Positions 8,271 to 38,618 of a DNA stretch of 64,000 bases are shown here, in pieces. How positions within the stretch are numbered: position 1 is the stretch's first letter; every line of letters begins with the position of its first letter. Source of the stretch: Fusobacteria bacterium ZRK30. GTDB taxonomy: Bacteria; Fusobacteriota; Fusobacteriia; Fusobacteriales; Fusobacteriaceae. Location: positions 2,170,001 to 2,234,000 of the forward strand of contig CP102405.1 in assembly GCA_024628785.1 (NCBI GenBank). Reading direction: 5' to 3'. The position numbers and the translations under genes were made by a program. Below the pieces are notes generated by a model. The model saw only the letters and a program-made list of their open reading frames with translations, searched no databases and had not been told where the DNA came from.

Positions 8271-8503
8271 AAAATCATCCCTTTTCTTAAATCAATTATT
8301 TATTAAAATTTCCCTTGCTATAATTTTTAAAATATACTAATTTAATTATACTTTATTTTTTTCACCTTTGGAAATACAATGTTTTTTTAGTTCTATTTAC
8401 TCTTTTTATCTTCCTTTTCTTAAAAAAAATCTCAACTCTTTGATGAAATTTTTTGGTGGTGATTTCCATTAAAAGATGTTAAAATATAGGAAATTATATC
8501 CAC

Positions 8504-8660
8504 TATAGGTTCATTTTGATTAAAAGGGAAATGGGTTAGATACCCATACGGTCCCGCCACTGTAAAAGTTATGAAACTACATAATCCACTGGATTTTTCT
8601 GGGAAGGAGTAGGAGTAAATTAAAACTTGAGTCAGGAGACCTGCCTAATGTGTTTTTATT
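8504..8660 (+). promoter_or_regulatory. Cobalamin (B12) riboswitch
   Basis: Conserved elements occur in order: AAAAGGGAAATGGG, the core GGTCCCGCCACTGTAA near 8551-8566, and the closing B12 box GAGTCAGGAGACCTGCC near 8630. Adenosylcobalamin binding to this fold normally lowers expression of B12 uptake and synthesis genes. It sits 100 bp upstream of a BtuF-like gene, followed by a terminator that provides the expression platform. Ends are approximate. Confidence 0.93.
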
Positions 8661-8707
8661 TTTCTTGCGAGGACAAGAGAATAACTTTTACTCTGTAAAA
8701 AGTTTTT

Positions 8708-12576: not shown

Positions 12577-12605
12577 TTGACATTTATTTTTTTTAGGTGT
12601 ATCAT
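12577..12605 (+). promoter_or_regulatory. Promoter of the histidine-attenuated transporter operon
   Basis: Consensus -35 TTGACA, 17-bp spacer, -10 TATCAT preceded by TG. It lies 30 bp upstream of the leader-peptide ATG. Confidence 0.75.
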
Positions 12606-12634
12606 ACTAAAAAATCATACAGGAGGAGAGTCAA

Positions 12635-12688
12635 ATGTTTAACAAATCATTAATTTTTATTACAGTACATCATCATCACCATAGATAA
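12635..12688 (+). CDS. Histidine leader peptide (five consecutive His codons)
   Basis: A 17-codon frame encodes MFNKSLIFITVHHHHHR, then TAA. Codons 12-16 (12668-12682) are CAT CAT CAT CAC CAT. A very strong ribosome-binding site, AGGAGGAG, begins 14 bp before the ATG, and a consensus promoter lies just upstream. A run of codons for one amino acid ahead of a terminator is the signature of transcription attenuation, as in the enterobacterial his operon (HisL). The peptide itself probably has no function; ribosome stalling at the His codons would sense low charged tRNA-His. Confidence 0.9.
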   Translation: MFNKSLIFITVHHHHHR

Positions 12689-12824
12689 GGATTTGTATTA
12701 TGATTTAATCATAGTTACAGATCCATGTTGTTTTTCAAAAAAACTTGGTTCTATATCTATGATGATTTAAACGTTAAACTCACACTGTTGTTTAGCCATC
12801 TAGATATTCTAGATGGCTTTTTTA
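12668..12824 (+). promoter_or_regulatory. Histidine attenuator with switchable pairing
   Basis: One strand at 12754-12766 (TATCTATGATGAT) can pair in two exclusive ways. With the leader (12672-12687, ATAGATA plus the His codons) it makes 8+5 bp around a 3-nt bulge. With the 5' arm of the terminator (12797-12806, CATCTAGATA) it makes 10 bp around one bulged base. A ribosome stalled on the His codons would hide the first partner, let the second form, and so prevent termination. A separate long hairpin follows the leader stop directly (12689-12724, GGATTTGTA pairing with TACAGATCC) and could be a pause hairpin. Pairings were found by eye; the mechanism is inferred. Confidence 0.8.
12794..12824 (+). 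terminator. Attenuator terminator
   Basis: A perfect 11-bp stem AGCCATCTAGA/TCTAGATGGCT with loop TAT, followed by TTTTTTA. It is located 54 bp before the first transporter gene. Confidence 0.9.
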
Positions 12825-12877
12825 TTTTCCGGAGATAAAATGATAACAGTCAAAACAAACTTAAGGAGGATTTATTT

Positions 12878-13672
12878 ATGAAAAAAATATTTATAACATT
12901 AATTTTAATATTAGCTGGTGTACAATCTTTTGCATTTTCAATGGGACAAAAAGATACTTTAACAAAAATAAAAAAAGATGGTTATTTTACTGTGGGATTA
13001 GACGATACCTTTGCACCTATGGGATTCAGAGGAGAAAACGGGAATATTGTAGGTTTTGATATAGACCTGGCCAAGGAAGCTGCCAAGAGAATGGGAGTTG
13101 AGGTCAAGTTTAAACCCTGTGACTGGGATGGTATCATCTTCGAACTTAGAAGTAAAAAGATAGATATGGTCTGGAACGGGATGACCATAACAGAGGATAG
13201 AAAAAAACAAATTGGTTTTTCTAAATCTTATTTCAGCGGGGAACAAATAATCGTTACTAAAAGCGGCAGTGATATCAAAGAGATAGCAGACCTTGCAGGA
13301 AAGACAGTTGGTTTACAGATGGGAAGTTCTTCCTACTTTGCTCTGGAAAAAAATACAGTATATCCAAGTGTAAAAGAAGTTAAAAAATATGGTTCCAATG
13401 TAGAAGCTCTTCTGGATTTAGAAGCAGGTAGAACCCAGGCTGTAATAATCGATTCCATGGTTGGAAGATATTATATTGCTAAAAAAGAAAGAAAAGAAAA
13501 TAAAGATATATTTTCAGTTGTAACTGAACCTTTAGCTGTGGAGTATACAGGTATAGGAATAAGAAAAGAAGATACTACCCTTATTGCCGAGATAGATAAG
13601 ATCATAGACGGGATGCAAAAAGACGGAACTTATAAAAAAATATATGAAAAATGGTTTGGAAGGAGAGGTTAG
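12878..13672 (+). CDS. Amino-acid ABC transporter, substrate-binding protein (histidine predicted)
   Basis: A 264-residue family-3 solute-binding protein with a signal peptide (1-20, ends SFAFS). Typical segments are GYFTVGLDDTFAPMGF, NIVGFDIDLAKEAAKRMG, DMVWNGMTITEDRKKQI and AVEYTGIGIRKED. It binds a polar amino acid in the periplasm for the permease and ATPase encoded next. The His-codon leader points to histidine (or a histidine precursor or analogue) as substrate; sequence alone does not prove this. RBS AAGGAGG. The permease follows after 2 bp. Confidence 0.9.
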   Translation: MKKIFITLILILAGVQSFAFSMGQKDTLTKIKKDGYFTVGLDDTFAPMGFRGENGNIVGFDIDLAKEAAKRMGVEVKFKPCDWDGIIFELRSKKIDMVWNGMTITEDRKKQIGFSKSYFSGEQIIVTKSGSDIKEIADLAGKTVGLQMGSSSYFALEKNTVYPSVKEVKKYGSNVEALLDLEAGRTQAVIIDSMVGRYYIAKKERKENKDIFSVVTEPLAVEYTGIGIRKEDTTLIAEIDKIIDGMQKDGTYKKIYEKWFGRRG

Positions 13673-13674
13673 AT

Positions 13675-14310
13675 ATGACTGATAGCATCTACTACATCGC
13701 AAAGGGACTGGATATAACTTTGAGACTTTATTTCATAACAGTATTTTTTTCAGTTCCATTAGGACTACTTCTAGCACTGGGAGAACTTTCTAAGATCTCA
13801 ATAATAAAAAAGTTTGTAACTTTCTATACATGGATATTTAGGGGTACTCCACTACTTTTACAGCTGTTCTTTATGTACTATGGATTACCGGTAATGGGGA
13901 TAACGTTATCCCCCCTTGGTGCAGCCAGTATCACCTTTATCATCAATTATGCTGCCTATCTATGTGAAATATTCCGTGGAAGTATTCAGGGTATAAACAG
14001 AGGCCAGTATGAAGCAGCAAAGGTATTGGGAATGGGTTATGGACAGACACTGATCAGGGTAATCCTACCCCAGGCTCTTAGGACTGCACTGCCTCCCCTT
14101 TCAAATGAGGCTATAGCTCTTATTAAAGATACATCTTTAGTCTCAATAATCGGTACAGCAGAGATCTTGAGAAATTCAAAGGAATTAGTGACAAGGGATT
14201 TTACAATAACTCCATTTTTCATCTGTGGAATCTTCTACCTTGTTTTATCTACTTTTATCCTGCTTATCTTCAAAAAATTAGAAAAAAGGATGGCGATCTC
14301 ATGTCAATAA
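13675..14310 (+). CDS. Amino-acid ABC transporter permease
   Basis: About 211 residues with five hydrophobic segments, of the HisM/GlnP type. The EAA loop that docks the ATPase reads EAAKVLGMGYGQTLIRVILP near 112. A start at 13675 is chosen because AGGAGAGG lies just upstream; a longer frame beginning inside the previous gene lacks such support. A single permease gene suggests a homodimeric channel. Its 3' end overlaps the ATPase gene by 10 bp. Confidence 0.92.
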   Translation: MTDSIYYIAKGLDITLRLYFITVFFSVPLGLLLALGELSKISIIKKFVTFYTWIFRGTPLLLQLFFMYYGLPVMGITLSPLGAASITFIINYAAYLCEIFRGSIQGINRGQYEAAKVLGMGYGQTLIRVILPQALRTALPPLSNEAIALIKDTSLVSIIGTAEILRNSKELVTRDFTITPFFICGIFYLVLSTFILLIFKKLEKRMAISCQ

Positions 14311-15038
14311 AAATAAGAAATATCAATAAATCTTTTGGAAACTTAAATATTTTAAAAAACATATCATTGGATATCAATAAGGGAGAGATCCTGTCTATTA
14401 TCGGCCCATCAGGCAGTGGGAAATCTACCCTCCTCAGATGTCTGATAGATTTAGAGGAAATAGATTCGGGGACATTAGAAGTTTTTAGCCACCCTCTTAT
14501 ATGCAGCAGTAGAAATCCTAAAAAAAAGGAGAGATTTGAAATCCTAAAGAAGATGGGAATGGTCTTTCAATCCTTTAACCTTTTCCCACATAAAACAGCT
14601 ATAGAAAATGTCATGGAACCTCTCGTAGTTGTAGATAAGATGAAAAAAGAAATGGCTGTAAAAAAAGCAGAAGAACTTTTAATTATGGTCGGGCTGGAAG
14701 ACAGGATGAACAATTATCCATCAGCTCTTTCCGGGGGACAGCAGCAGAGGGTGGCTATTGCCAGAGTCCTTGCTAGAAATCCAAAAATACTTCTCTTTGA
14801 TGAGCCTACATCTGCTCTGGATCCAGAGATGGTAAAGGAAGTCCTCACAGTTATTGAATCTCTCAAAAACACAGGAATAACAATGATCATAGTCAGCCAT
14901 GAGATGGAGTTCGTAAAACAGGTTTCAGACAGAGTAGTTTTTATGGATTGCGGAACTGTCCTCAGCTGCGATATACCTGACAAAATATTCAATTCTGCTA
15001 AAAATGAAAGGATCAATAAATTTTTAAATAATTTTTAA
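14301..15038 (+). CDS. Amino-acid ABC transporter ATPase
   Basis: A 245-residue ATPase of the HisP/GlnQ type with all motifs: Walker A GPSGSGKST near 35, Q-loop FQSFNLF, signature LSGGQQQRVAIARV near 141, Walker B ILLFDEPTSALD near 162, and the switch His in VSHEM. It powers uptake through the preceding permease. It is the last gene of the attenuated operon and is followed by a strong bidirectional terminator. Confidence 0.94.
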   Translation: MSIKIRNINKSFGNLNILKNISLDINKGEILSIIGPSGSGKSTLLRCLIDLEEIDSGTLEVFSHPLICSSRNPKKKERFEILKKMGMVFQSFNLFPHKTAIENVMEPLVVVDKMKKEMAVKKAEELLIMVGLEDRMNNYPSALSGGQQQRVAIARVLARNPKILLFDEPTSALDPEMVKEVLTVIESLKNTGITMIIVSHEMEFVKQVSDRVVFMDCGTVLSCDIPDKIFNSAKNERINKFLNNF

Positions 15039-38512: not shown

Positions 38513-38550
38513 TTTTCAAAAAAAAGTGCAGACCAAAAAAGATCTGCAAC
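38513..38550 (-). terminator. Riboswitch expression-platform terminator
   Basis: On the minus strand TGCAGATC-TTTTTT-GGTCTGCA (8 bp, one G-T) is followed by C and eight Ts. Its 5' arm shares TGC with the 3' strand of the aptamer's closing stem. Confidence 0.85.
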
Positions 38551-38609
38551 TGGCTGCCATTTTAAAGGCCCTATAGCTTTGCGTCATAGGATTTCCCCTA
38601 TTTTGCCTA
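38541..38609 (-). promoter_or_regulatory. Cyclic di-GMP-I (GEMM-I) riboswitch
   Basis: Minus-strand sequence shows the GEMM-I hallmarks in order: GGCAAAA, hairpin ATAGG-GGAAAT-CCTAT with a GAAA tetraloop, GACGCAAAGCTA, a receptor-like GGGCCTTT/AAAATGG helix, and GGCAGCCAGTTGC closing the fold. It sits between the MORN-like gene and the BY-kinase operon and is followed by a terminator. Since the closing stem (GCAA/TTGC) overlaps the terminator arm, ligand binding should favour read-through (an ON switch); this is inferred. Confidence 0.92.
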
Positions 38610-38618
38610 TATTATATA

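Follow-up and report, generated by a model that had tools for sequence, protein, structure and literature searches.

Leader-peptide attenuators are usually seen as separate inventions, made operon by operon. In the enteric his attenuator of Salmonella, the leader is laid out in segments which can form several alternative helices. Several systems of related function or structure have been described in other bacteria. In Firmicutes, His attenuators have been reported from the Bacillus cereus group, Peptostreptococcaceae and Erysipelotrichales (PMC9413887, PMC2965389). In Table 3 of PMC9413887 (17 genomes), the his biosynthetic operon is the only one they precede, and the transporter is listed under T-box or HisR control. 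A further RNA, the trpB motif (RF04312), has been published as a strong riboswitch candidate for which its authors could not exclude a classic attenuator; it is known from Firmicutes and Fusobacteria and stands mostly before an amino-acid ABC transporter (PMC11109978). Among open-licence papers, no published case of leader-peptide attenuation in Fusobacteria was found.

Here, we describe a histidine leader from Fusobacteria bacterium ZRK30. The window, the whole stretch of DNA that was analysed, has a length of 64,000 nt, and positions refer to it unless stated otherwise. The leader was compared with its counterparts in 98 fusobacterial genomes, with leaders for other amino acids and with known RNA families.

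Results

Anatomy of the leader and its operon

A first-pass annotation of the sequence had proposed a promoter, a ribosome-binding site, a 17-codon peptide with five His codons and an 11-bp terminator in front of an amino-acid ABC operon, and consensus scan and translation located each of them where it had been placed (Table 1). The promoter, the Shine-Dalgarno sequence, the peptide, the terminator and the competing helix at 12577-12878 are real. In the consensus scan, the promoter was the top promoter-like site within the region. The stop codon of the leader occupies 12686-12688, and the intrinsic terminator (12794-12818) consists of 11 pairs and a 3-nt loop with a T-run behind. Compared with dinucleotide shuffles, folding of the leader RNA gave a z-score of -6.1, and 0 of 200 shuffles were as good.

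Table 1. Features of the histidine leader, its operon and the his-operon remnant of the same genome
Feature	Position	Strand	Basis
Sigma-70 type promoter, TTGACA-17-TATCAT	12577..12605	+	consensus scan, 11/12 matches
Shine-Dalgarno AGGAGGAG, 6 nt 5' of leader ATG	12621..12628	+	sequence
Leader peptide MFNKSLIFITVHHHHHR-stop	12635..12688	+	translation; His run kept in relatives
Segment A, sensing cassette, five His codons	12668..12682	+	sequence, translation
Segment B, predicted partner of C in the state stalled at the His codons	12690..12704	+	folds, B:C covariation
Segment C, predicted partner of B (stalled) or D (not stalled)	12708..12725	+	folds, C:D covariation
Segment D, antiterminator strand in its 3' part (12753-12764), predicted partner of C or E	12739..12764	+	folds, covariation
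Segment E, terminator 5' arm (12794-12804) and D-pairing stretch (12797-12807)	12794..12807	+	terminator scan, folds, covariation
Segment F, intrinsic terminator 3' arm (12808-12818) plus T-run	12808..12824	+	terminator scan, E:F covariation
Substrate-binding protein SBP_bac_3, predicted histidine-binding	12878..13672	+	Pfam PF00497
ABC permease BPD_transp_1	13651..14310	+	domain/family searches
ABC ATPase, amino-acid type	14301..15038	+	domain/family searches
his-operon remnant by internal deletion, leader and terminator intact	L043 (G000:C2:1648000-1654000), 706-2284

The peptide thus carries codons of the amino acid predicted to be regulated, and the intrinsic terminator precedes the first gene, as in ribosome-mediated attenuation. 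We assign the element to this mechanism class and not to the family RF00514 (His_leader), whose covariance model gave no match at gathering score.

For the transporter proteins, no NCBIfam substrate model scored above its curated cut-off, and histidine is the predicted substrate. The genome of the window holds a remnant of the his operon, made up of a shortened hisZ, a piece of hisF, and hisE behind an intact leader and terminator; a search of this genome for HisG/hisG found none. Since the operon is reduced to this remnant and no hisG was found, the organism probably depends on uptake.

Histidine transporters of Firmicutes are regulated by T-boxes and by HisR (PMC9413887), and the operon could in principle be controlled by a tRNA-His-binding T-box or a HisR/TrpR-type repressor, with the leader unrelated to its regulation. 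Yet the window has no T-box match (RF00230 gave none at the locus), the genome has one sub-threshold match, located elsewhere, and the TrpR/HisR family (PF01371) is absent from it. Both forms of control were rejected and are considered extremely improbable here. The single T-box-like match of the genome (L086; G000:C1:493452-493626; 74 bits, under the Rfam cut-off) lies upstream of a small protein gene.

At gathering level, the Rfam scan of the window returned nothing at the leader and only cobalamin and c-di-GMP-I riboswitches elsewhere, at 8490-8662 and 38542-38617 (minus strand). The former class of element precedes a substrate-binding-protein-like gene and a cobyric acid synthase region. 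Low-scoring Rfam matches on the leader, MIR1511 among them, were taken as chance hairpin matches.

Conservation of the His leaders

The pattern GGAG-ATG-4xHis, standing for a Shine-Dalgarno sequence, a start codon and four His codons, occurs in 45 of the 98 fusobacterial genomes, compared with four matches in all for the reversed pattern. The genes behind these leaders encode one orthologous ABC transporter or are hisZ-hisG, and a T-run follows the leaders at about 130 nt. The collection comprises 46 transporter leaders (40 from Fusobacteriaceae and six from another family of the order) and 17 his-operon leaders, nine collected first and eight hisZ leaders added later; the 17 include the leader of the his remnant in the genome of the window. 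A recognisable terminator was present in 53 of the first 55 leaders (46 transporter and nine his-operon leaders). Because transporter and hisZ leaders have a common RNA sequence 3' of the stop codon, they represent one element. About ten Fusobacteriaceae genomes, mostly of genera g6 and g13, contain the transporter ortholog without such a leader, as does genus g21 of another family.

It had been proposed on the first pass that histidine attenuation governs an uptake operon, and a search for His-run leaders before transporter operons of other fusobacterial genomes had been suggested. Such leaders were found at orthologous positions, with the His run, the terminator and the alternative helices kept in relatives and the same element before hisZG. 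On comparative sequence grounds, histidine attenuation of the uptake operon is thus supported.

Covariation of four helices

In the alignment of 46 leaders, with a shuffle control that leaves relatedness in, the helices C:D and E:F were 92.7% paired and showed 85 double-change cells versus 22.9 after shuffling; for B:C and D:E, the values were 93.3% and 47 versus 18.4. Sliding the partners by 1-3 columns reduced pairing to at most 46%. In E:F, changes on both sides were seen in 11 of 12 pairs. Covariation in the aligned sequences supports all four helices, D:E the least since its changes are mostly one-sided. A set of 34 non-His elements (see below) gave 187 double changes versus 53 shuffled, with 26 versus 11.5 for B:C, in an alignment that was fitted to a covariance model and therefore favours the structure.

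Modelled response to the ribosome

Ensemble folding was calculated against the position of the ribosome's front edge for a transcript ending in the terminator loop. With the front edge at or before 12688, B:C had a probability of 0.94 and D:E of 0.86-0.96. With the front edge at 12700, corresponding to a 12-nt footprint and a stop codon that occupies the A site, C:D reached 0.94 and D:E fell to 0.04. Without a ribosome, the His codons were paired with D at 0.75 and D:E was at 0.00. The outcome depends on the footprint, as 9 nt at the stop codon still leave D:E at 0.74. Once the terminator is complete (full-length RNA at equilibrium), it is preferred in all ribosome states; therefore, the decision must fall during transcription. 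Acting during transcription is, to our knowledge, common to all attenuators.

An earlier partition-function test of single leaders, calculated with a 10-nt footprint, was weakly informative and has been superseded by covariation and the footprint scan. Its mean antiterminator probabilities were 0.65 stalled and 0.47 at the stop (shuffled: 0.52 and 0.49), which is on average only modestly above shuffles, and it failed in some genera. For the leaders of G014, G036, G040 and G041, this test did not resolve the switch.

In the first-pass reading, a strand at about 12754-12766 paired either with the His-codon region or with the 5' arm of the terminator. Both partners of the D strand appear in the folds, the former in the ribosome-free state; a third one, segment C, had been overlooked and is decisive during translation of the leader. 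Blocking the 5' part of the leader, which had been suggested as a check, makes the alternative helices swap with ribosome position in the model, as expected. The analysis supports C as the decisive competitor of the antiterminator, either held by B or freed, and it likewise supports that pairing of the His codons with D is relevant only if the leader is untranslated. Modelling and covariation indicate that antiterminator and sequestering helix are mutually exclusive and that the ribosome's position would set the choice.

The proposed mechanism would work as follows. If charged tRNA-His is scarce, the ribosome would stall on the five His codons with its front edge short of B; B:C could then form, leaving D free for E, so that no terminator arises and the operon is transcribed. 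If charged tRNA-His is plentiful, the ribosome would reach the stop codon and cover B; C:D and E:F would form and transcription would end. If the leader is not translated, the His-codon region would hold D and the terminator would form.

One chassis with many codon cassettes

The covariance model of the His leaders (R1), run on the 98 fusobacterial genomes, also found non-His elements, and the genes behind them were named with NCBIfam. A second covariance model (R2) detected elements in 62 of the 98 genomes, six of them in the genome of the window, namely before the His importer, the his remnant, thrS, metN, metG and tyrS. In the latter four (L187, L188, L189 and L316), Thr, Met, Met and Tyr runs are set in the same chassis.

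The peptides carry cassettes such as TTTT before thrS, MMMM before metN and metG, and YYYYY before tyrS. Leaders of asnA have N runs, those of putP have P-rich ends, and WW stands before sodium-dependent transporters. DAHP synthase is preceded by WYFYYYF and aspartate-semialdehyde dehydrogenase (asd) by TTTIII. O-acetylhomoserine sulfhydrylase and homoserine dehydrogenase are preceded by MLMMMLW, a cassette read from the DNA with a provisional start codon. In the six families whose amino acid is unambiguous, 56 peptides contained 237 cognate residues (shuffled mean 72, maximum 120 in 20,000 shuffles), and among the 720 permutations of families only the true one reached 237. The codon match is less clear-cut before trpY-like, peptide-binding and some other genes.

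Short leader genes can boost translation downstream (PMC4833913), and the peptide might accordingly be read as a general translation sensor or a reinitiation leader without histidine specificity. This has hardly any chance of being correct, as the first gene starts about 190 nt after the leader, beyond a terminator, and the type of codon is conserved and matched to the gene.

The distance from the end of the codon run to B is 5-11 nt in 103 leaders, which come from eight gene families and are of the His, Thr, Met, Pro, Tyr and Asn types. This range is approximate because B was located by a simple pattern. The end of the stop codon, in contrast, lies anywhere between 18 nt inside B and 4 nt ahead of it. 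A distance that is constant from the codons and not from the stop is the requirement of a ribosome ruler.

Several further elements were noted. Tyr-run leaders precede an AGCS-family symporter and a TrpX-like binding protein (L343 and L334), for which tyrosine uptake is predicted. An aromatic-codon leader, FWFMYYF, stands before a glycerol-dehydrogenase-like protein of the Fe-ADH family (L337, G006), for which a role in aromatic amino-acid metabolism is predicted. In L206 (G084), the chassis with the leader MKRFREAMCMS, which has no clear codon run, lies before a MetN-like ATPase with a NIL domain.

Likeness of the chassis may reflect common descent or functional constraint. Its elements have primary sequence in common (GGGUUUGUA, ACAGACC and UUUUGU); this shared sequence speaks for descent. 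R2 gave no matches in eight non-fusobacterial genomes and matched three of 398 Bacillota genomes. One of these Bacillota matches (L361) had no convincing leader and was set aside.

Relation to the trpB motif

The best bacterial Rfam match of the window element is RF04312, and it is weak (32.3 bits, E 0.007; gathering score 59), while the His leaders of relatives reach 40-52 bits with this model, still under the threshold of 59. The window element has the two hairpins of the published architecture (PMC11109978), whose antiterminator lies in the right shoulder of P1. This resemblance to a published riboswitch candidate (PMC11109978) would suit a metabolite riboswitch as proposed for the trpB motif, with an amino-acid-related ligand for the RNA and an incidental short ORF. 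A single binding pocket cannot explain, however, that the same chassis carries differing codon runs which match the downstream gene family by family and stand at a fixed spacing. Moreover, among the 398 Bacillota genomes, RF04312 scored above threshold once (L356/L362 in G349), before trpX, and in L356 this example follows the leader MAQLSINTHYSVNQRTWQNWRR, which ends in TWQNWRR and contains Trp codons; segments B to F are all readable there. We regard a metabolite riboswitch as very unlikely.

From this one above-threshold Bacillota example, the trpB motif looks like a part of the attenuator family. The trpX gene of Streptococcus suis is under a T-box (PMC9382623), so that sensors of trpX appear to have been exchanged between lineages.

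Discussion

Anatomy, conservation, covariation, the match of cassette and gene, fixed spacing and modelled switching make up the observed side of our explanation. It is highly probable that the leader is a ribosome-mediated transcription attenuator which makes the expression of a histidine ABC importer depend on tRNA-His charging and which belongs to a chassis family with exchangeable cassettes; this explanation predicts that the ribosome stalls, that read-through occurs in vivo and that the transporter carries histidine. The broader view, that Fusobacteriota possess homologous attenuators on one chassis with interchangeable cassettes for at least eight amino acids, forming a ribosome-read counterpart of the T-box with the trpB motif as a branch, is in our judgement likely. 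The first-pass annotation had held that, as far as known, ribosome-stalling His attenuation is not a described theme in this phylum; stalling attenuation appears to be widespread there and to serve at least eight amino acids.

The type of mechanism is already known; we found no earlier account of one chassis used with interchangeable codon cassettes. With one layout for many amino acids, codon-run attenuation would be a class of regulation that spans the genome in Fusobacteriota, human-associated Fusobacterium among them. Rather than a lone oddity, the element seems to be one nutrient sensor that is used again and again. Cassettes could predict substrates for transporters beyond the reach of sequence families, and they offer a testable identity for a published orphan riboswitch candidate, the trpB motif. 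The swapped cassettes also provide a natural series in which to study how the position of the ribosome sets the state of an RNA switch.

With the his attenuator of Escherichia coli and Salmonella (RF00514), the leader shares the His-codon peptide, alternative helices, the terminator and a predicted read-through upon stalling; in contrast, uptake is controlled here, and the RNA sequence is common to attenuators for other amino acids. The Firmicutes His attenuators (PMC9413887) resemble it in three to five consecutive His codons and in terminator and antiterminator, whereas Fusobacteria are not covered in that work. Compared with the trpB motif, P1 aligns with C:D and the second hairpin with the terminator E:F; that motif was described without a leader peptide, as a riboswitch candidate, and the window element stays below its gathering score. 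The T-box likewise employs one RNA scaffold in which a codon-sized cassette is changed per amino acid, and it controls synthetases, biosynthesis and transporters. It does so by direct binding of uncharged tRNA, whereas in the fusobacterial chassis a translating ribosome would read the codon run.
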